Shown one piece after another: positions 5,296 to 41,088 of a stretch of 64,000 nucleotides of DNA (position 1 is its first letter; each line of letters opens with the position of its first letter). The notes below the pieces were generated by a model. The model had not been told where the DNA came from. It saw only the letters and a program-made list of their open reading frames with translations, and did no database searches. The position numbers were made by a program, and so were the translations under genes. Origin of the DNA: Methylopila sp. 73B (lineage in GTDB: Bacteria > Pseudomonadota > Alphaproteobacteria > Rhizobiales > Methylopilaceae); assembly GCF_000526315.1 (NCBI RefSeq), contig NZ_JAFV01000001.1, positions 1,860,001 through 1,924,000 on the forward strand. Direction: 5' to 3'.

Positions 5296-5940
5296 GTGAG
5301 CCCGACAGTTACCCAGATCAAGAAGATCCACGCCCTTTCCCGCAACGCCGGGCTGGACGAGGACACCCGCCGCGACCTGATGGAGCGGGAGGTCGGCGTC
5401 CGCTCCACGAAGGACATGACGGCCGCGCAGGCGATCCGCGTGATCGACCGGCTGAAAGTGATCGCGGGCGATCGCGCGAAGCCGGCCACCCGGAAACCCG
5501 CCGCTTCGGGCAAGGGCGCGCTCGCCCTTGAAGGGCCCTTCGTCGCCGTGATCCGGGCGCTCTGGATCTCGGGCCACGCCCTCGGCGTGATCGAGAACCC
5601 GTCCGACACGGCGATGGTCGCCTTCGTCGAGCGCCAGACGGGCATCCAGAACATGGCGTGGGTCCGCGATCCCCGCGACGGCCGCAAGGCGATTGAGGGC
5701 ATGAAGGCGTGGCTCGCGCGCGCCGGCGGCGTCGTGTGGCGCCGCGAGGACGAGACCGGCCACGGCCGCAAGCTCGCCGTTTATCTCGCCCTCCGCCGGC
5801 TGCTGACGGCCGCCGGCGTCGACCCGCAGTTCATCGACTTTCCCGGCCGCATCGGCGTGCGCTCGCTCGACGAGGCGCGGCTTGACGCGCTGATCCGCGA
5901 CGGCGGCGAGCGCCTCGCCCAGGCGCGCCGGGAGGCATGA
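5296..5940 (+). CDS. gemA: GemA-like regulatory protein (DUF1018, Mu gp16)
   Basis: A 214-residue protein with a GTG start. The N-terminal domain (QIKKIHALSRNAGLDEDTRRDLMEREVGVRSTKDMTAAQAIRVIDRL) is characteristic of GemA/DUF1018. GemA in Mu modulates host gene expression and DNA supercoiling. Residues 60-75 form a Pro/Ala linker. The C-terminal half contains a second helical domain (ALWISGHALGVIENPSDTAMVAFVERQTG, FIDFPGRIGVRS). It resumes the plus-strand early operon after the reverse gene; its leader therefore lies between divergent starts (5252-5295). Confidence 0.85.
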   Translation: MSPTVTQIKKIHALSRNAGLDEDTRRDLMEREVGVRSTKDMTAAQAIRVIDRLKVIAGDRAKPATRKPAASGKGALALEGPFVAVIRALWISGHALGVIENPSDTAMVAFVERQTGIQNMAWVRDPRDGRKAIEGMKAWLARAGGVVWRREDETGHGRKLAVYLALRRLLTAAGVDPQFIDFPGRIGVRSLDEARLDALIRDGGERLAQARREA

Positions 5941-6412: not shown

Positions 6413-7113
6413 CCCGCCCGGCCGGCTTCCTCGCTGTCATGGCCGGACGGCGCTCGCCGCCGAAGGCGCTCGACTTCTTCCCGACGCCGCCCTGGGCGAC
6501 GCGCGCCTTCGTCGAGTTCGTGCTCGCCCCCTCGCTTGAGTTCACTGGCTGGGAGCCTCGCGACCTGTGCGGCTGGGACCCGTGCTGCGGCGAAGGCCAT
6601 ATGGTCGAGACGCTGAAGGAAACGCTCGGTTCGTGCCGCGGCAGCGACGTCTTCGATTACGGCACCGGCTACGAGGTCGCCGACGCGCTGGAGCCCGGCG
6701 CGTTCGATCGGCCGTCCGACCTGATCGTCACGAATCCACCGTTCAACATCGCCGCCGGCATTGTGCTCGCGGCCCTGACATCGTCGTTCGCACCGCAACG
6801 TTTCGGCGTCTTCGTGCTGGTCAGAAGCCAGTGGTTCGGCGGGGGCACGCGGTTCCGGAAACTGTTCAGTCGGTTCCCGCCGACGATCCATGCGCCGTAC
6901 GTCGAGCGCGTGCCCATGGTGGCGGGTCGGTACAACCCCAAGAAGTCGACCGCGACCGATTATTGCTGGCTTGGCTGGACGAAGAGCAGAGGCCGCCTAA
7001 GCGATCCGGTGACGTTCATTCCGCCCTGCCGGAAGCGCCTCGAGCTGTCGCGTGACATCCTGCGCTGGTGCCCGCCGGCAGACGCCCCGCTGTTCGATGG
7101 AGCGGTCGCGTGA
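6409..7113 (+). CDS. N6-adenine DNA methyltransferase-like protein
   Basis: A 234-residue protein with the two core motifs of amino-methyltransferases: a SAM-binding motif I (CGWDPCCGEGHMVETL, about residues 50-66) and catalytic motif IV NPPF (about residue 109). It starts with the phrase ALDFFPTPPWATRAF, seen in many phage methyltransferases. The enzyme would transfer a methyl group from SAM to the exocyclic amine of adenine in DNA. No specificity domain is visible, so it is a solitary methylase. It is coupled to both neighbours (ATGA at its start, GTGA at its end). Protection of phage DNA or regulation are both possible roles. Confidence 0.75.
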   Translation: MTRPAGFLAVMAGRRSPPKALDFFPTPPWATRAFVEFVLAPSLEFTGWEPRDLCGWDPCCGEGHMVETLKETLGSCRGSDVFDYGTGYEVADALEPGAFDRPSDLIVTNPPFNIAAGIVLAALTSSFAPQRFGVFVLVRSQWFGGGTRFRKLFSRFPPTIHAPYVERVPMVAGRYNPKKSTATDYCWLGWTKSRGRLSDPVTFIPPCRKRLELSRDILRWCPPADAPLFDGAVA

Positions 7114-7562
7114 AGTATTCGTGGCTGCCCCCAATGCTCGCAGACGTCGCCGAGGCCGCGGGCCTCGACGCGGCGCTCGCGCTCGCGACGGCGGCCGGCG
7201 GACGGCGTGTGACGATCCCGGCGCGCGCGAAGAACGGACACTGGCTCGTCGAGGCGGTCGGTCGTGAGGCGGCCGACAAGATCTGCGCGCACTTCCGGAC
7301 GATCAACGCGGACGGCCGCGAGACCGGCGCCCGGCAGATCGTGATCCCGATGGGACCGGGCTCGGTGGTCAAGGCCGCGAAGCGCCAGCTCGCCCGCAAC
7401 ATCGAGGCCGGCATGACGGTCCGGAAGGCGGCGCAGGCCGCCGGAATGCACGAGCGGACGGGCTTCCGGGTGAAGCGGCGGCTGGACGGCCGCGACGCCG
7501 TCGATCCGAACCAGACGTCGCTTCTGGACCTCTTCGAGCCGTCTTCGAAGGCCCGTCGCTGA
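7110..7562 (+). CDS. Mor/C-type transcription activator
   Basis: A 150-residue protein starting at a GTG that overlaps the methyltransferase stop. It has the two parts of the Mor family: an N-terminal dimerisation region with the repeated pattern GGRRVTIPARAKN and ARQIVIPMGPGS, and a C-terminal helix-turn-helix (GMTVRKAAQAAGMHERTGFRVKRRL). In Mu, Mor activates the middle promoter and the related C protein activates the late promoters by binding dyad sites just upstream of a weak -35 region. Only one such gene is visible here and it is the last early gene. It is therefore the obvious candidate for binding the palindrome seven bases after its stop and the two further copies. Confidence 0.8.
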   Translation: MKYSWLPPMLADVAEAAGLDAALALATAAGGRRVTIPARAKNGHWLVEAVGREAADKICAHFRTINADGRETGARQIVIPMGPGSVVKAAKRQLARNIEAGMTVRKAAQAAGMHERTGFRVKRRLDGRDAVDPNQTSLLDLFEPSSKARR

Positions 7563-7568
7563 CGCTTA

Positions 7569-7588
7569 GGGCTGACAGCTGTCAGCCC
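7569..7588. promoter_or_regulatory. Late-operon palindrome, copy 1 (before endolysin)
   Basis: A perfect 20-bp palindrome, GGGCTGACAGCTGTCAGCCC, seven bases after the activator gene and 79 bases before the endolysin start. The same sequence recurs before the I protease and the tail sheath. Its position matches that of the Mu Plys late promoter. The activator-binding role is inferred. Confidence 0.7.
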
Positions 7589-7667
7589 CCGAAATCCCGG
7601 CTCCGAAGGGGATGGTGACGACAAGAACGCCGCGTCGCGCGGCTCTCGTCAAGCCCCGGAGCATCCC

Positions 7668-8363
7668 TTGTCCCTCGAACCTCTCTGGCTCGCCGCCGCC
7701 CGGCGGGACCTTGGTCTGCGCGAGATCGTCGGGTCCCGCGACGAGCCCCGCATTGTCAACTTCTTCGCCGAGGCCGGCCACCCCTACGTGAAGGACGACG
7801 AGACCGCGTGGTGCGCGGCCTTCGTCAACGCCAAGCTGAAGGAGGCCGGAATCGCCGGCACCGGCAAGCTCAACGCGCGCTCCTTCCTCGCCTGGGGCCA
7901 GCCGCTCAAGACGCCGGCGCCCGGCGCGATCGTCGTCTTCAAGCGCGGCAATTCCGCGTGGCAGGGCCACGTCGCGTTCTACCTCGGCGACACCGGCGAC
8001 AAGATCGTCGTTCTCGGCGGCAATCAGGCCAACTCGGTCTCCGAGGCGCGCTACGCCAAGGCGAGCCTGCTCGGCTACCGCTGGGCCAACGGCGTCGCGC
8101 TGCCCGTGGGCGGTCCCGCTAAGCCGCTGAAGGCCGGGCTCCCACGGCTGCAGATCGGCTCGAACAGCAACGACGTCCGCGTCTGGCAGGAGCAGCTCAA
8201 CGCGCTCGGCGCATCGCCGCAGCTCAAGGCGGACGGCAAATTCGGACCGCTCACCCGGACGGCGACGGCCGCCTTCCAAAAGTCACAACAGCTGTCGGAC
8301 GACGGCGTGGTCGAGGACGGCGAATGGAACGCCGCCGCGACCGCGCTCGAGCGTCTCGGCTGA
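7668..8363 (+). CDS. Endolysin: NlpC/P60-like (TIGR02594) peptidase with peptidoglycan-binding domain
   Basis: A 231-residue protein with a TTG start placed 8 bases after CCGGAG. Residues about 5-145 form a cysteine-peptidase domain of the TIGR02594 type, with the nucleophile in DETAWCAAFVNAKL and the histidine in WQGHVAFYLGDTGDKIVVLGGNQ. Residues about 155-228 form a PG_binding_1 domain (SNDVRVWQEQLNALG, DGKFGPLTRTATAAFQKSQ). It would cut peptidoglycan peptide cross-links at the end of infection. There is no signal peptide, so export should depend on a holin. It heads the first late operon, just downstream of palindrome copy 1. Confidence 0.88.
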   Translation: MSLEPLWLAAARRDLGLREIVGSRDEPRIVNFFAEAGHPYVKDDETAWCAAFVNAKLKEAGIAGTGKLNARSFLAWGQPLKTPAPGAIVVFKRGNSAWQGHVAFYLGDTGDKIVVLGGNQANSVSEARYAKASLLGYRWANGVALPVGGPAKPLKAGLPRLQIGSNSNDVRVWQEQLNALGASPQLKADGKFGPLTRTATAAFQKSQQLSDDGVVEDGEWNAAATALERLG

Positions 8364-8375
8364 CCGGAGGCGGCG

Positions 8376-8903
8376 ATGCTCAGAACCGTCTTCGCCTTCT
8401 TCCTCGAGACCGTCGAGGTGGTGCTCGTCGCCTGCGCGATCGTGTTCTTCGCGGTCGTGCTGGGCGTTGCGCTGTCCGGCCTGGTCGCGGCGCAGGAGGT
8501 CGGCTCCACGCTGACCGGTGCGCCGCCGTGGTGGATCTCGCTGCTGACGGAACTTGCGGCCGGCGTCGTCCTGACCCTCGCGGCGCCGGCCGCCTTTCTC
8601 GCCGTCGGCGTGCTGGCGCGCCTGTTCAAGCGCTTCGGCTTTGATCTCGACGAGCGCCGGCGCAACCGCCTGCAGGCGATCGTCGAGGCCGGCATCATGG
8701 GCGCCGTGGCCCGCCGCAGCCTCACGCGGACGCAGGTCGGCATCGCGCTGGGCGAGCGCGAAGCGATCCTCGAAGAGGCGACCGCCTACGTGAAGCGTCA
8801 CGGCGCCGACACGCTGAAAGACCTCAAAGCGCCGAAGGACGCCGACGATCTGAAGAAGATCGTCGAGGCCCGCGGCGGTCATCTTCTCGTTTCGCAGCAG
8901 TGA
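8376..8903 (+). CDS. Holin-like membrane protein
   Basis: A 175-residue protein with two predicted membrane segments (residues about 8-40 and 52-80). A cytoplasmic domain follows, with the pattern LDERRRNRLQAIVEAGIMGAV and AYVKRHGADTLKDL, which resembles the C-terminal part of LLH-type phage holins. The ATG follows a strong ribosome site (CGGAGG). It lies 12 bases after the endolysin, so a role in forming the lysis pore is likely. Confidence 0.65.
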   Translation: MLRTVFAFFLETVEVVLVACAIVFFAVVLGVALSGLVAAQEVGSTLTGAPPWWISLLTELAAGVVLTLAAPAAFLAVGVLARLFKRFGFDLDERRRNRLQAIVEAGIMGAVARRSLTRTQVGIALGEREAILEEATAYVKRHGADTLKDLKAPKDADDLKKIVEARGGHLLVSQQ

Positions 8904-8910
8904 GCTTCCC

Positions 8911-9375
8911 GTGTCCGACTTCGTGATCATCCATACGCTGAACTACGGCCGGAGCACGGTCGCGCGCTTCCTCGACAGCGCGCTGACCTGGGCGCTCCGC
9001 TTTATCGATAGCTTCTTCGCCGCTCCGGGCATCCGTGGCGTCGACCTCGGCCTGTCGCTGATCGCCGGCGGCTGGGTCTGGTCGATCGCGCATAACCCGG
9101 TGACGATGGAGCGGCTGACCTATGCCGGGCTGTCGTTCATGACCCGGCAAGCGTCGGTCGGCGTGTTCGCCCTCCTCGCGGTGGTCCATCTCATCAGCTA
9201 CCTCAATCCTCACGCGCGGTTCTGGCGCGTGTTTTGGCTCGGCGTTTCGTCCTGGGTCTGGGCGGTGATCGGCTCGTTCATGGCCTGGGCGGTCACGACC
9301 GGCGGCGTCACCTACCTCGTCGTGGGGTTCGTCGCGTTCATCGGCGCCATCTACGTCGAGCGGTCGCACCGCTGA
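8911..9375 (+). CDS. Multi-pass membrane protein of the lysis cassette
   Basis: A 154-residue protein from a GTG start, with about four hydrophobic segments (GVDLGLSLIAGGWVWSIA, ASVGVFALLAVVHLISYL, FWLGVSSWVWAVIGSFMAWAV, VTYLVVGFVAFIGAIYV) and little else. No family is recognised. It sits between two other membrane proteins next to the endolysin, so a second holin or antiholin role is plausible. Its stop overlaps the next start by one base. Confidence 0.6.
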   Translation: MSDFVIIHTLNYGRSTVARFLDSALTWALRFIDSFFAAPGIRGVDLGLSLIAGGWVWSIAHNPVTMERLTYAGLSFMTRQASVGVFALLAVVHLISYLNPHARFWRVFWLGVSSWVWAVIGSFMAWAVTTGGVTYLVVGFVAFIGAIYVERSHR

Positions 9376-9785
9376 TGGACGCCGAGGCCGTCAAAGCGCT
9401 CGTGAAGGCGGCCGAAGGTTCGGACTCGGTGTGGGTGACGGGCCTCGCCCTCGTCATCCTCGCGGTGCTCGTTGCGAACCGCTTCGGCTTGTTCGCCTTC
9501 CTGAGCGGCGGGCGCACCGCAGTCCAGGCGACCGACTTCCAGCAGAAGCTGCTGGACGCGCTCGAGGCGAGCCATCAGCGCGAGGACGCGATGGCGCGGA
9601 AGCTCACCGAGATGGCGGGCCAGAACGACGAACTGCGGGGCGATGTGCAGGACGCGCGCTTCGAGATCCACATGCTTCGCCAGCAGGTCAGGCTGCTGCT
9701 CGAGTGGATCAAGCAGTTGAAGGCCGGCGTTATCGGCCTCGACGCGCCGCTTCCCGAGATCTCGGCGCCGGAGGCCAAGACATGA
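9375..9785 (+). CDS. Membrane-anchored coiled-coil protein
   Basis: A 136-residue protein with one N-terminal membrane helix (residues about 20-40, WVTGLALVILAVLVANRFGLFAFL). A long charged helix follows (residues about 50-120, RKLTEMAGQNDELRGDVQDARFEIHMLRQQV) that should form a coiled coil. This architecture resembles inner-membrane spanins and other phage lysis accessories, though no lipoprotein partner is visible. It overlaps both neighbours (TGATG upstream, ATGA downstream). Confidence 0.6.
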   Translation: MDAEAVKALVKAAEGSDSVWVTGLALVILAVLVANRFGLFAFLSGGRTAVQATDFQQKLLDALEASHQREDAMARKLTEMAGQNDELRGDVQDARFEIHMLRQQVRLLLEWIKQLKAGVIGLDAPLPEISAPEAKT

Positions 9786-10141
9786 CGGAAGCCCCAATCG
9801 AGATCGACGCCGCGGTGATGTTCTTCGTGATGATCACGATCGCGTTCTTCGTCTTCATGGCGGTGTGGGGCGTCGCCCGCAACTCCGCCTCCCTACGCGA
9901 CATGACCGAGGTCAAGGCGCGGCTGACGACCATGGAGACGTCCTCGGTCGACGTCTCCAACCGGCTGGGCGCGCTGGAGACGCAGGTCTCACACCTCCCG
10001 ACCGCCGAACATGTCCACCGCATCGACGTCCAGCTCGAAGGCGTGAAGACGGTCGTGCAGACGACCGCCAAACAAATCGACCGGATGTACGACCACATGA
10101 TGAGCGCGCGCGCGCCATCGCCCTCAGACGGGACGAGCTGA
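9782..10141 (+). CDS. DUF2730 family protein (Mu gp25-like)
   Basis: A 119-residue protein with an N-terminal membrane helix ([22 protein letters not shown]) and a C-terminal coiled coil ([42 protein letters not shown]). This matches DUF2730, a family conserved in Mu-like phages at this position, downstream of the lysis genes. Its function is not established; an accessory lysis role is a common guess. It is coupled by a single-base overlap to the next gene. Confidence 0.75.
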
Positions 10142-10458
10142 TGCTGAGTTTCAAGGAACGGATGCTTCAGGAGGCGCGCCTCGTGATGGTGCGCGAGCTG
10201 GGCCGCCAGACGAGCGGTCGCCTGCCGGTGCGGGCGTTCGAGGCGGTGCTCGAGGTCGAGGGCCATACCGAGCACTCGCCCGAATGGATCATGACCCAGC
10301 TCGCGTTCCTCGAGCAGATCGGGGTCGTCCGCCGGATCAAGGTGGGCGAGAGCGAGACGGCGACGATCGCCCAGCTGACGGATCTCGGCGAACGCTTCCT
10401 CAAGCGTCGCGTGGAGATCGCCGGCATCAAGCGTCCCGACTTCGACGTCGAAATCTGA
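10141..10458 (+). CDS. Mu gp26-like winged-helix protein
   Basis: A 105-residue protein resembling the small conserved protein that precedes the terminase genes in Mu-like phages (VpaChn25_0724 type, Mu gp26). The predicted fold is a winged helix: helices in [18 protein letters not shown] and [18 protein letters not shown], then the wing strands [18 protein letters not shown]. Its role is unknown. The start ATG overlaps the stop of the DUF2730 gene. Confidence 0.7.
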
Positions 10459-10469
10459 GGAGCGCGCCC

Positions 10470-10730
10470 ATGTCCACCGTCAATCCCGACGACATCGCGA
10501 AAGAGCAGCTGACTGCCTTCGTGGAGCGCATCGAGCGGCTCGAGGACGAGAAGGCCGGCATCACCGAGGACATCAAAGAGGTCTACGCCGAGGCCAAGGG
10601 CAACGGCTTCGACGTCAAGGTGCTGCGGAAGGTGATCTCGCTGCGTAAGCAGGACTCCGACGAGCGCGTGGAGATGGAGACGATCCTCGACCTCTATCTG
10701 CAAGCCCTCGGCATGCCGACCGCGAGCTGA
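10470..10730 (+). CDS. GapR-like (DUF2312) nucleoid-associated protein
   Basis: An 86-residue protein that closely follows the alphaproteobacterial GapR/DUF2312 consensus: [44 protein letters not shown] and the end DLYLQALGM. In Caulobacter, GapR encircles overtwisted DNA ahead of replication forks and supports topoisomerase activity and chromosome replication. The start ATG follows GAGGAGCGCGCCC. Finding it between the gp26- and gp27-like genes of a transposable phage suggests a host gene captured for phage DNA replication or packaging; this role is inferred. Confidence 0.85.
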
Positions 10731-10735
10731 CGCCG

Positions 10736-11362
10736 ATGGACGGCCGTCGCGACCGCCTCAGCTCGCTCGACCTCGTGCCCGAGCACGCCCAGGACGACAT
10801 CGTCTGGGCGGTGCGCGAGATGAACAAGCGCACCCGCACGAACGCCGACATCCTGTTCGAGCTGAACGACAAGCTCGCGGTGAAAGGCGTGCCGCCGATC
10901 TCCTCGTCGGCGTTCGGCCGGAAGGCCGTCCGGCTTAAAGCCCTTCGTCAGCGCATGGAGACCGCGCGCGAGGTGTTGGCCGGCGTGCAGGATCTGACCG
11001 CCGGCGACCTCGACGAGCAAGCCGTGAAGGTCGGGCACGTCATCATGATGCTGATCGCCGAGCTCATGGCGGACGGCGTCGATCGCGCGCCCAAGGATCT
11101 GAAGGCGATCGCCGACGCGTTCAAGGCGATCATCACCGGGCAGAAGATCTCCGCGGACCGCCGCCAGAAGGTGGAGGCCGAAGCCGACGCCAAGGCCGAG
11201 AAGAAGGCCGCCGCGAAGACGCTCGCGACCGTCGATAAGGTCGCGCGCGACGCCGGGCTTTCGAAAGAGACCATCCGCAACCTGCACGAGGGCTTCTTCA
11301 ACGTGTTCGGCGGCGACCCTCGGCCGAAGCCGAAGCCCGCCGAGGCGTCTCATGGAGCTTGA
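10736..11362 (+). CDS. DUF3486 family protein, probable small terminase (Mu gp27)
   Basis: A 208-residue protein of the DUF3486 family, which in Mu-like phages lies directly before the large terminase and is taken to be the small terminase subunit. Visible features are the N-terminal HTH-like segment (DDIVWAVREMNKRTRTNADILFELNDKL), a conserved SSSAFGRKAVRLKALRQRM and a basic coiled-coil region with Ala/Lys repeats. It overlaps the terminase gene by 11 bases. It would recognise the phage end and start headful packaging. Confidence 0.85.
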   Translation: MDGRRDRLSSLDLVPEHAQDDIVWAVREMNKRTRTNADILFELNDKLAVKGVPPISSSAFGRKAVRLKALRQRMETAREVLAGVQDLTAGDLDEQAVKVGHVIMMLIAELMADGVDRAPKDLKAIADAFKAIITGQKISADRRQKVEAEADAKAEKKAAAKTLATVDKVARDAGLSKETIRNLHEGFFNVFGGDPRPKPKPAEASHGA

Positions 11363-13004
11363 TCAGGACCGGTTCGCCGAGGAGCCTGTGCTCTCCCGCG
11401 ACCCCGCGGACCTTCCCGAGGCGCTCCCGACCGGCGCGGAGATCCCGGACGATCTCGACCCTCGCAGCGCCGGCGTCCTGATGCGCCATCAGGTCGATTG
11501 GCTCGCGGACACGTCCACGCTGAAGATCGCTGAGAAGGGGCGGCGCACCGGCATCACCTTCGTCGAGGCCCTGGCGGACACGCTGCTGGCCGCGGCCTCC
11601 CGCTCGGCCGGCGGTTCCAACGTGTTCTACATCGGCGACACGAAGGATAAGGGCCGCGAGTTCATCCAGTACGTCGCGCACTTTGCGAAGATCGTCGCGA
11701 AAGAGCTGGCGACGATCGAGGAGTTCCTGTTCGAGGATCAGCGCGACGATGGCTCTTCCAAGAGCATCGCCGCGTTCCGCGTGCGCTTCGCCTCGGGCTT
11801 CCGCGTGGAGGCGCTGTCGTCCCGGCCGGAGAACATCCGCGGCCTGCAGGGCACCGTTGTCATTGACGAGGCGGCCTACCACAAGGACGTCCGGGCGGTG
11901 CTGGACGCGGTCAACGCGCTGCTAATCTGGGGCGGCAAGATCCGCATCATCTCGACCCACAACGGCGTTCTGAACCCCTTCAACGAGCTGATCCGCGAAG
12001 CCCACGCCGGCAAGAACCGCTACGTCGTCCACAACATCCCGTTCTCGGCCGCGGTCGAAAACGGCCTGTTCCGCCGCGTCTGCGCCAACAAGGGCGAGGA
12101 CTGGACGCAGGAAAAACAGGACGCGTGGGAGGCCGAGATCCGCGGTGCCTACGGGTCGCGCACCGCAGCGATGCGCCAAGAGCTGGACGCGATCCCGGCA
12201 GAGGCCGAAGGCGCCGCGCTGACGCGCGTGCAGATCGAAGCGGTGATGAGGCGCGGCACGGGCAAGATCGTGCGCTGGGCGCGCGACGACGCCTTCAAGA
12301 ACGAGCCGCCGCACGTCCGGCAGGCGATCACGCTGGCCTTCTGCGAGGCGCAGCTGAAGCCTGTGCTCGAGGCGATGAACCCGCGGCGGGCGCATGTGTT
12401 CGGCTGCGACTTCGCGCGCAAGGGCGATGGCTCGGCCTATGTGTTCGACGAGATCGGCGCGGACCTGATCCGTCGCCGGCGGCTGACGCTCGAGCTGCGC
12501 AACGTGCCCTACGAGACGCAGCGCGACGTGCTGTTCTGGATCGTCGAGCGGCTTCCGCGCATGGCCGGCGGAGCGCTCGACGCGACCGGCAACGGCGCCT
12601 ACCTCGCCGAGGTGGCGGCCCAAAAGTTTGGCGGGTCGATTGTGGAGGTGAACTTCTCAGGCGGCCTCTGGTACCGCGACAACATGCCGGGCTACGTCGA
12701 AGCCTTCGCCGACCAGTCGATCGAGCTGGAACCGGACGAGGACGTCCTGAGGGATCATCAATCCCTGCAGTATGTCGGTCGCGTCATCAAGGTTCCGGAA
12801 GACTTCCGTCTTTTGGGTGTGGACGGCTACTGGCGGCACGGCGACACGGCGATCGCCGGCGCGCTGTCGTTCTGGGTCTCGACGCAGGACCTGCCGGAAT
12901 ACGGCTACACGCCGGCCTCGAGCCTCGGCCCGACGTCGAGCCCGCTGCTGGGCGGCTCCACCGGCCAGAGCTTCACGAACTACGGAGGGAAGGTCCTGTG
13001 GTGA
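11352..13004 (+). CDS. Large terminase subunit (Mu gp28-like)
   Basis: A 550-residue packaging motor. The ATPase domain has the adenine/P-loop-type segment KGRRTGITFVEALAD (about residue 64) and a Walker B with catalytic acid, VVIDEAAYHKDV (about residue 173). The nuclease domain begins at VFGCDFARKGDGSAYVFDE (about residue 350), where the first Asp is a metal ligand, and continues through GALDATGNGAYLAEVA. Residue count and motif order fit Mu gp28. It translocates DNA into the procapsid and cuts it by headful packaging. Confidence 0.93.
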   Translation: MELDQDRFAEEPVLSRDPADLPEALPTGAEIPDDLDPRSAGVLMRHQVDWLADTSTLKIAEKGRRTGITFVEALADTLLAAASRSAGGSNVFYIGDTKDKGREFIQYVAHFAKIVAKELATIEEFLFEDQRDDGSSKSIAAFRVRFASGFRVEALSSRPENIRGLQGTVVIDEAAYHKDVRAVLDAVNALLIWGGKIRIISTHNGVLNPFNELIREAHAGKNRYVVHNIPFSAAVENGLFRRVCANKGEDWTQEKQDAWEAEIRGAYGSRTAAMRQELDAIPAEAEGAALTRVQIEAVMRRGTGKIVRWARDDAFKNEPPHVRQAITLAFCEAQLKPVLEAMNPRRAHVFGCDFARKGDGSAYVFDEIGADLIRRRRLTLELRNVPYETQRDVLFWIVERLPRMAGGALDATGNGAYLAEVAAQKFGGSIVEVNFSGGLWYRDNMPGYVEAFADQSIELEPDEDVLRDHQSLQYVGRVIKVPEDFRLLGVDGYWRHGDTAIAGALSFWVSTQDLPEYGYTPASSLGPTSSPLLGGSTGQSFTNYGGKVLW

Positions 13005-39603: not shown

Positions 39604-40434
39604 GTGGACGCGTTCACGAACTTGGGGATGACCGAGGCGCCGCGCGCCCGGCCGTTGGCGGGCTACGTCGGCGGAAAGAAGATGCTGGCGAGGCGGCTCG
39701 CCGAAATCATCGACCAGACGCCGCACGACCTCTACGGCGAGGTGTTCGCCGGCATGGGCGGCGTGTTCTTCAAGCGCCGGCTCGCGCCGAAGGTCGAGGT
39801 GATGAACGACCTGAGCCGGGACGTGGCGACGTTCTTCCGCGTGCTCCAGAACCATCATCAGGCCTTCCTCGACATGCTGCGCTGGCAGCTGGCGAGCCGG
39901 GAGGAGTTCGGGCGCTTGCTCGGGCAGGACCCGGAGCGCCTGACCGACCTTCAGCGGGCCGCGCGCTTCCTCTACGTCCAGCGCCTCGGCTTCGGCGGGA
40001 AGGTGGTCGGCCGGACGTTTGGGGTCTCGCGGGAGCGCGCCGCGCCGTTCGACGTCCACAAGCTCGCGCCGCTGATCGCCGAGGCTCACGAGCGCCTCGC
40101 CGGCGTGTGGATCGAGTGCCTGACCTGGGCGGCCTTCCTCGACCGCTGGGACCGGCCGGGCGCCCTGTTCTATCTCGACCCGCCCTATTGGGGCACGGAG
40201 AGCTACTACGGCCCCGGCATGTTCGCGCCGGCGGATTTCGCCGCGCTCGCGACCCGCTTGAAGGGGCTTCGAGGGCGCTTCGTGATGTCTTTGAACGACC
40301 TTCCGGAGACCCGTGAGACGTTCGCCGGGTTCTCGATCGAGACGGTGCCCGTGACCTATACGGCCGGCCTGTCCAACGGGACGCGAGCGACGGAGATCAT
40401 CATCACCGGGGGAGGCTCGGCCGTTGCTCCATAG
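39604..40434 (+). CDS. D12-class N6-adenine DNA methyltransferase (Dam-like)
   Basis: A 276-residue protein from a GTG start. It has the D12 Dam layout: N-terminal motif X/I pair (YVGGKKMLARRL and GEVFAGMGGVFF), an inserted target-recognition region (residues about 85-165), then catalytic motif IV DPPY (FYLDPPYWGTESYY). It would methylate adenine in DNA from SAM. The gene is the last before the right end, where Mu carries the mom modification genes. It is 144 bases beyond D and probably a separate unit. Protection of phage DNA against restriction is the likely job. Confidence 0.88.
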   Translation: MDAFTNLGMTEAPRARPLAGYVGGKKMLARRLAEIIDQTPHDLYGEVFAGMGGVFFKRRLAPKVEVMNDLSRDVATFFRVLQNHHQAFLDMLRWQLASREEFGRLLGQDPERLTDLQRAARFLYVQRLGFGGKVVGRTFGVSRERAAPFDVHKLAPLIAEAHERLAGVWIECLTWAAFLDRWDRPGALFYLDPPYWGTESYYGPGMFAPADFAALATRLKGLRGRFVMSLNDLPETRETFAGFSIETVPVTYTAGLSNGTRATEIIITGGGSAVAP

Positions 40435-40448
40435 CCGCCCCGTTTGCT

Positions 40449-40493
40449 GCAGATTCAAGTGTCCGGAATTGCAGATTCATGTGTCCGGCTACA
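40449..40493. repeat. Right-end transposase-binding repeats and putative right terminus
   Basis: Two direct 18-base repeats, GCAGATTCAAGTGTCCGG (40449-40466) and GCAGATTCATGTGTCCGG (40471-40488), lie 22 bases apart, two helical turns, as R1 and R2 sites do at Mu ends. CTACA follows, so the 3'-terminal CA would be at 40492-40493. GGGAG after it would be the start of the host sequence. Confidence 0.7.
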
Positions 40494-41088
40494 GGGAGCA
40501 GCGTCGAACTCCGTCATGGAAGGTCTCCCTCTCGGGGCGTGGAAGGCGTCGCCGCCGTTCCTCGCCCGCAGTTCTGGAGCATGGGAGAAACCTACCCGAC
40601 GAGCGTCACGCTGTCAATGCATATTTTCCTAGTTAGGATTTTTAGCTGGTCACGAGCGGAGCGTGTGGGACGGCCGGCGGCGCGCTGGGTCTGGCTCCGA
40701 TGACCCGGCGGGGCCGGCTTAGGCCAATCGGGAGTCCGCTGCGACGCGCGCTACGGCACGCACTCCGCGCCGGACTGGTAGGCGGTGCGCGGTCTCGCCC
40801 GTTAACCGCTCGTGAACCGTCTGAACCGGAGATGAACCTTATTATTAGAATAAATTCAGATTGGCTGAGCTAACGTCGCGCCGCGTCCAGGGTGTCCCCC
40901 GTCCGAAAGACGCTGCGCCGGAATTCCGCCCCTCTCCGGTTCAGGCCCCTTAGACGATGCTCAACCGTTGGGGAGCGGTTGAGCGCCTTTTCCGCTCCCT
41001 GCGTTTGGGTTCACCCTGTCCGGATCGTCGCGGCGAGCGGTTCTCGAGCCTTGCGGAAGCCTACCCGGCGAGCGTTGGGCGTTCGGGT
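40494..41088. other. Host intergenic region to the right of the prophage
   Basis: No convincing gene is seen in these 595 bases. They contain an AT-rich patch at about 40835-40865 that could be a promoter, a terminator-like hairpin at 40959-40984, and two copies (near 40574-40610 and 41035-41070) of a diverged motif built on GTTCTNGAGC and CCTACCCGRCGAGCGT. Small open frames here look like chance frames in GC-rich DNA. Confidence 0.5.
40959..40999 (+). terminator. Overlapping hairpins in host intergenic DNA
   Basis: GCTCAACCG pairs with CGGTTGAGC (loop of 8), followed by GCCTTTT, giving a terminator-like structure. GGGAGCGG (40971-40978) can pair instead with CCGCTCCC (40992-40999). The two stems share CGG, so they are mutually exclusive. 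Confidence 0.45.

Follow-up and report, generated by a model that had tools for sequence, protein, structure and literature searches.

The question raised by this locus is why a prophage of Methylopila sp. 73B carries a gene for GapR, a nucleoid protein that its host already encodes, and where the phage gene came from. The locus was studied in a stretch of 64,000 nucleotides (contig NZ_JAFV01000001.1, positions 1,860,001 to 1,924,000), which is referred to below as the window.

Identity of the gapR gene and its product

The gapR gene occupies positions 10470-10730 of the + strand, starts with ATG and encodes 86 amino acids; an in-frame ATG further upstream, at 10284, gives a longer listing of the same frame. 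A Shine-Dalgarno-like GAGGAG overlaps the stop codon of the preceding gene, and the following gene begins 5 nt past the gapR stop. The product was matched by the Pfam family of the GapR DNA-binding domain, PF10073, over the whole profile (1-72 of 72) with an E-value of 1.5e-34 and 117.8 bits (cut-off 22.6 bits), and by the NCBIfam subfamily NF010247 with 125.1 bits (cut-off 94). When the PDB was searched by sequence at E-values up to 1, seven of the eight matches, including all those below 0.001, were GapR/UPF0335 proteins, the best being 6cfx (2.2e-29), and the eighth was at chance level (E 0.92). Against NF052541, the Caulobacter-type GapR equivalog, which needs 140 bits, the protein scored 109.5 bits, below the threshold. 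Because the chromosomal GapR of the host also falls short (108.1 bits), this model appears to be narrow. Taken as sequence matches, these results confirm far beyond chance that the protein belongs to the GapR family, and an earlier note on this DNA was right to assign the 86-residue product to GapR/DUF2312.

The AlphaFold model of the monomer (mean pLDDT 90.8, pTM 0.57) contains helices at residues 6-44, 49-60 and 63-79. This modelled layout, with a long N-terminal helix and two short ones, agrees with the helix arrangement given for GapR in PMC6853979. A Foldseek search of the PDB with the monomer model gave ten matches, none of which was a GapR chain, and a second look with VIA-align likewise gave none. 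Against BFVD, Foldseek found two proteins named Azospirillum phage Cd Gp10 (1.9e-6 and 1.8e-5); gp10 of this phage is annotated as DUF2312.

The carrier is a Mu-like prophage

The prophage was delimited with a script that sought TG...CA termini together with a 5-bp duplication in both flanks. Among four end candidates, the best pair was alike at 21 of 30 end positions (the next at 13) and had the duplication GGGAG, which lies just outside the right end at 40494-40498. The prophage defined in this way spans genome C1 1855459-1900493 (45,035 bp) and takes up window positions 1-40493, with its left end outside the window. Repeats of the type GGACACwTGnnnCTGCA were found at both ends, three at the left and two at the right, where two repeats resembling transposase sites lie at 40448-40488 on the - strand.

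The 3' part of a MuA-type transposase gene, which begins upstream of the window (L005 9248), occupies positions 1-1383 (+; DDE_2, 168.3 bits) and is followed by the gene for a MuB-type target protein (1456-2466, +; PF09077, PF13401). Directly after MuB, at 2430-2972, a protein of 180 amino acids with a DnaA domain IV is encoded (PF08299, residues 20-86 of 180). Further downstream lie a gemA homologue (5296-5940, +; PF06252, 93.2 bits), the gene for a Mor/C-type late transcription activator (7068-7562, +; phrog_836, 3.2e-23) and an endolysin-like gene with CHAP and peptidoglycan-binding domains (7668-8363, +; PF05257, PF01471). The gapR gene is directly preceded by a gp26-type gene (VpaChn25_0724-like; 10141-10458, +; phrog_436, 1.4e-13), which scored 52.1 bits against NF050184, below the cut-off of 65. 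It is directly followed by the gene for a Mu Gp27-type small terminase subunit (10736-11362, +; PF11985, 71.8 bits; phrog_426) and then by that for a Mu gp28-type large terminase (11352-13004, +), which tblastn aligned to the Mu gp28 region at 38.6% over 89% (E 1e-83). A Mu-like protease and a tape-measure-like tail protein are also encoded by the prophage within the window. The MuA, MuB, Mor/C, Gp27 and protease genes, the TG...CA ends, the 5-bp duplication and the end repeats identify the carrier as a Mu-like transposable phage.

The earlier note had placed gapR among late genes just before the terminase. Its place just before the terminase was found to be correct: the gene stands after the Mor/C-type activator and a lysis-type gene, and both terminase genes follow it. 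The place of gapR behind both the Mor/C-type activator gene and the endolysin-like gene makes late expression probable, as judged from gene order; a scan of positions 7000-11400 for sigma-70-type promoters found none. The note had also combined GapR with a DnaA-like protein as two mimics of host replication factors. The latter does contain the C-terminal DNA-binding domain of DnaA (PF08299), with no match beyond that domain, and the description of two mimics was overstated because the protein matches DnaA domain IV only.

Several other genes were observed in the prophage and beside it. A Schlafen AlbA_2-domain gene (PF04326; 16078-17391) is inserted between the minor head and Mu-like protease genes, and a gene for a D12-class N6-adenine DNA methyltransferase (39604-40434) lies at the right end, 59 bp short of the end site. 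Upstream of the window, the early region contains a gene with a ParB N-terminal domain (L005 7952-8932), located 5' of the transposase gene. A separate phage-type portal and terminase pair on the other strand (L005 978-5083; PF04860; PF03237/PF17289) adjoins the prophage and is perhaps a gene-transfer-agent-like or older prophage remnant.

Origin of the phage gene

Three gapR genes were found in the host genome: the window copy; a gene at C1:2911159-2911374, which adjoins a DUF1244 gene and was taken as the chromosomal one; and a third at C1:666442-666657, within the stretch C1 666412-666669 (L007 6413-6670). This third gene lies in a second phage-like region, is flanked by an HNH gene and by ERF/YqaJ recombination genes, and is 55-56% identical to the window copy. 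At least one gapR was present in all 13 genomes of the host genus and in at least 231 of the 249 genomes of the order sample. The window protein and the host chromosomal GapR share 73 of 82 residues (89%), and the tree places the window copy within the set of chromosomal GapRs from this genus.

Another genome of the same genus, G215, contains a Mu-like prophage whose gapR occupies the slot between gp26 and gp27 as well. Its locus is identical to IMG/VR locus L069 across the 2,553 nt compared, and this phage is the nearest relative found in IMG/VR by gp27 (72%; next 49%). The GapRs of the two same-slot phages share 60 of 82 residues (73%), and the G215 phage protein shares up to 72 of 82 with other chromosomal GapRs of the genus. 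A single clade of the two same-slot phage copies was rejected by the AU test (p 0.0019 with outgroups, again 0.0019 when the rows were limited to the genus, and 0.0069 once a 68-nt tract described below was removed); these p-values concern a hypothesis prompted by the data because doubt about the clade arose from the pairwise identities before the tree. From this rejection and the host-like identities, it follows that gapR would have entered this slot by more than one capture, or by a single capture followed by exchange with host gapR.

At the DNA level, the window gapR is 88% identical to the host gapR, a value tied by the genus member L464, and the two share a 68-nt run without change. This run is common to three chromosomes (L001, L465, L466) and absent from seven others compared. 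The 22 unchanged codons in a row have a P of 0.0017 under random placement and of 0.023 when only synonymous differences are counted. The tract is compatible with exchange in either direction, and 82 codons are little data. Between the two phage loci, dS was 0.68 for gapR, 0.83 for gp26, 0.93 for gp27 and 0.71 for the terminase. Similar dS across gapR and its neighbours is as expected of an old shared insertion and speaks against the simple picture; the pairwise dS sums still favour the tree (0.75 vs 0.93 and 0.98). As judged from these comparisons, host chromosomes were the source of the window gapR or later exchanged sequence with it. The description of the gene in the earlier note as a phage copy of the host GapR agrees with the 73/82 identity to the chromosomal copy and with the clustering among genus GapRs. 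The phylogeny did not place the protein in a clade unrelated to GapR, the outcome that the note had named as counting against it.

Occurrence and sites of gapR in phages

With GenBank and RefSeq duplicates counted separately, tblastn detected the GapR family in 156 of the 50,697 phage records searched, and alphaproteobacterial host genera account for at least 117 of the 156. In phage Mu, gp26 and gp27 adjoin with no GapR between them. Of 160 terminase loci, 15 had GapR in the flank that was fetched; ten of these 15 (L197-L206) look like a single phage that was resampled. When terminase-selected IMG/VR records, some of them fragments, were searched whole, GapR was found in 5 of 47; these 47 were hand-picked from 80 terminase loci and excluded L069, which had been chosen for its GapR. 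In four of the five, two of which look like the same phage, gapR lies directly 5' of gemA. An IMG/VR search with MuB gave two loci.

The idea that gapR at gp26/gp27 is standard in alphaproteobacterial Mu-like phages was rejected: in the order sample, only 2 of 37 gp27 matches had it, the 37 including the window and two matches with no gp26 in the stretch (L012, truncated where its contig stops, and L494, in which gp27 is a fragment). Among related loci with both gp26 and gp27, gapR lay between them in 1 of 213 (near-copies included). The 196 gapR-free gp26/gp27 loci comprised 181 with less than 110 nt between the domains and 15 with at least 200 nt, and the junction seems prone to insertion. 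Another small protein of about 88-101 amino acids was observed at the junction in the Mu-like phages L164 (3703-3969), L233 (3708-3971), L239 (3835-4101) and L170 (3028-3333); the proteins of L164 and L233 had no Pfam match.

The sites occupied by gapR in Mu-like phages were designated A to E, same-strand genes only being listed as neighbours for A to D. At site A, gapR lies just upstream of gemA (L076, L078, L185/L243, L197-L206, L211/L235, L317, L395, L397) or, with wider spacing, 300-470 nt upstream of it (L316/L349, L387, L396). Site B is the slot between gp26 and gp27 (window, L069), site C is located between gp27 and the large terminase gene (L177, L328, L330, L338, L339), and site D lies between Mor and gp26 (L416, L429). 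At site E, in genome G126, gapR is flanked by the tail genes GpU and GPD; a gp27 match 26 kb upstream of it presumably belongs to the same prophage. Among 53 gemA loci that closely resemble the Roseovarius-type gene, 18 had gapR in the fetched stretch, and 11 of the 18 (L352-L362) seem to be repeated samples of a single phage. The two genes overlap in L314 and L311, where the stop codon of gapR runs into the start of gemA. Among nine other phages inspected, four had a polymerase, helicase, RuvC or Holliday-junction-resolvase gene within about three genes of gapR, Azospirillum phage Cd being assigned to these four by its RefSeq label. Because gapR elsewhere adjoins gemA, lies among tail genes or has replication/recombination genes nearby, the place before the terminase is not characteristic of it.

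A protein tree was built from 140 rows over a small number of columns and has 128 inner branches, 70 of them with less than 80% support. Its general phage rows were 76 of the 80 IMG/VR GapR loci; L076 and L078 were counted as Mu-like, and L069 (identical to L475 over 2,553 nt) and L077 were left out. Most site A rows and three site C rows grouped together, and L076/L078, L177, L416/L429 and the window were placed elsewhere. This scattered placement of Mu-like GapRs therefore points to several gains of gapR by Mu-like phages.

Conserved residues and selection

According to PMC7498317, Caulobacter GapR contacts DNA at K34, K42, K49, K56, K59, K60, R63 and K66, and R26, E28, E31, E47, R65 and K66 form salt bridges at its interfaces. 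Six of the eight contact positions are identical in the window protein, the changes being K59 to R and R63 to S, and all eight have the same state in the host chromosomal copy. The six salt-bridge residues are all retained. In the sister-phage copy of G215, the contact lysine K42 is replaced by A. In the residue table, from which L077 and L476 were omitted, the 76 general phage rows keep K34 in 71, K49 in 76, K56 in 75 and K66 in 68 cases, and every one of them has R or K at position 59; K42 (43 K, 21 R), K60 (29 K) and R63 (36 R, 12 K) are variable. K60 is rare in the order's 30 chromosomal rows too, 27 of which have Q. The dN/dS of the window gapR was 0.12 against the host gapR and 0.31 against the G215 phage gapR. 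The window gapR is under purifying selection.

Possible role of the phage GapR

GemA, which is encoded by many Mu-like carriers beside gapR, has been linked to host gyrase. Its function is called unknown in PMC8705779. Pairing of the Mu ends and Mu replication are stated to need gyrase, a central gyrase site, IHF, Fis and HU (PMC3820752; PMC8705779). GapR follows overtwisted DNA and stimulates gyrase and topo IV according to PMC8510090, and its aid to these enzymes on overtwisted DNA is also described in PMC12185513.

The proposal favoured here, which is given an even chance, is that the GapR of the Mu-like prophage, being of host origin, raises the supply of GapR and thereby relaxes overtwisted phage DNA during replication or late transcription. 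The prophage would carry an additional GapR from the host chromosome in an apparent late operon. Since the phage protein equals the host protein at the DNA-contact and interface positions, it is predicted to encircle DNA as a ring in the manner usual for GapR. The phage copy would provide more GapR while the phage replicates by transposition and the late operon is strongly transcribed. GapR would sit on overtwisted DNA ahead of forks and polymerases, where it would help gyrase or topo IV to relax that DNA. Several points stand against this role: phage Mu and most relatives searched are without gapR, the host already has a chromosomal gapR, the scan of 7000-11400 gave no sigma-70-type promoter, the Foldseek search of the PDB gave no GapR chain, and the contact lysine K42 is missing from the sister-phage copy. 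Because Mu and most of these relatives lack it, gapR appears to be dispensable for the Mu-like life cycle. A broader proposal is more tentative and is considered rather less likely than not. Alphaproteobacterial Mu-like phages might repeatedly capture GapR as a portable topology factor, often as a gapR-gemA pair, which would feed gyrase in replicative transposition; in the window lineage, the gene would have come to lie in the late operon and would be matched to the host by recombination with chromosomal gapR.

An 89% identity to the host protein and identical interface residues would also suit mixed rings, in which phage GapR co-assembles with host GapR, alters or displaces it and strips the host chromosome or slows host replication late in infection. 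The window copy goes with the host subclade, which would be expected of a protein that has to match its partner. Its purifying selection and retained contact residues, however, suggest a functional protein rather than a poison, and the GapRs of other phages frequently differ strongly from those of hosts; this explanation is considered unlikely. The position of gapR in the apparent late operon would also fit a late-transcription factor like T4 DsbA, which would coat late promoters or late operon DNA and aid late transcription. DsbA is called a GapR homologue in PMC7824862, Rhodobacter phage records carry a DsbA-like name, and a weak similarity runs both ways (window protein to phrog_639, E 0.0019; T4 DsbA to PF10073, E 0.026, and to phrog_4212, E 0.076). 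However, the similarity is under the family cut-offs, with no PF11126 match at 0.001, and many Mu-like carriers have gapR beside gemA, outside the late operon. Since T4 dsbA is moreover described in PMC2988020 as non-essential and as having no effect in an in vitro late system, a DsbA-like role is judged improbable.

No phage role would be needed if a host gene had been caught by chance at an insertion-prone junction. In agreement with this, 15 of the 196 gapR-free gp26/gp27 loci, several of them near-copies, hold another insert of at least 200 nt, and gapR is rare at the slot, as the single case among 213 loci illustrates. Such a passenger is nevertheless quite unlikely in view of the low dN/dS against both the host and the sister phage, the tight packing of the gene with its own Shine-Dalgarno-like site, and the occurrence of gapR at several sites in different Mu-like phages. 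A packaging role, which the earlier note called possible, would have GapR work with the terminase and takes its evidence from position: the tight arrangement with both terminase genes in the window, and the location of gapR between gp27 and the large terminase gene in the site C loci. This role was not supported and is very unlikely, for other Mu-like carriers have gapR next to gemA, G126 has it between tail genes, and Mu and most relatives searched do without it.

Comparison with known systems

The window protein has the same full-length domain as chromosomal GapR (PF10073/DUF2312/UPF0335; Caulobacter CC_3319 and the host copy). It equals the host protein in contact and interface residues and differs from it at nine residues; the host chromosomal gene is located beside DUF1244, whereas the window copy lies between gp26 and gp27 in a Mu-like prophage. 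Members of the same family are carried by other alphaproteobacterial phages (Rhizobium, Caulobacter and Rhodobacter phages, Azospirillum phage Cd with gp10, Erythrobacter R34L1), but most of those inspected are not Mu-like, and the other phage GapRs compared are more distant from any host copy (best non-genus row 69%). The Mu-like gapR-gemA pairs of Roseovarius mucosus, Citreimonas salinaria and IMG/VR contigs resemble the window in that a transposable phage carries gapR on its coding strand. They differ from it in that gapR precedes gemA and in their separate tree branch, and their GapRs are 42-49% identical to the window copy.

T4 DsbA (PF11126) is likewise a small phage protein that binds dsDNA, and its gene is coupled to a late-transcription gene according to PMC2988020. 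Its profile similarity to the window protein is weak and under the cut-offs, and it has a Pfam family of its own, unlike GapR with PF10073; T4 DsbA is possibly a distant GapR relative. Plasmid H-NS homologues, such as Sfx of R6K as presented in PMC13250579, provide a parallel in that a mobile element has its own host-type nucleoid protein, as the window prophage does, but Sfx belongs to another protein family and, unlike GapR, has a silencing role.

Significance

Phage-borne GapR is already known, as public records label such genes DUF2312, UPF0335 or DsbA-like. In PMC12185513 (2025), the first identification of GapR in a phage genome is claimed; this statement is qualified by the many deposited records and by the link between DsbA of T4-type phages and GapR that was made in 2021 (PMC7824862). 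No paper on GapR in transposable phages was found in the open-access literature, which was searched without most subscription journals, and the occurrence of gapR at about five sites in Mu-like phages, often right before gemA, was not found in print. The different gapR sites in Mu-like phages and the host-matching of the window copy are the parts worth following. A gyrase-dependent type of phage, exemplified by Mu, that brings an extra protein for overtwisted DNA may serve as a natural test of what GapR is for, and the window prophage would represent a phage gene that stays tied to the version of its host.
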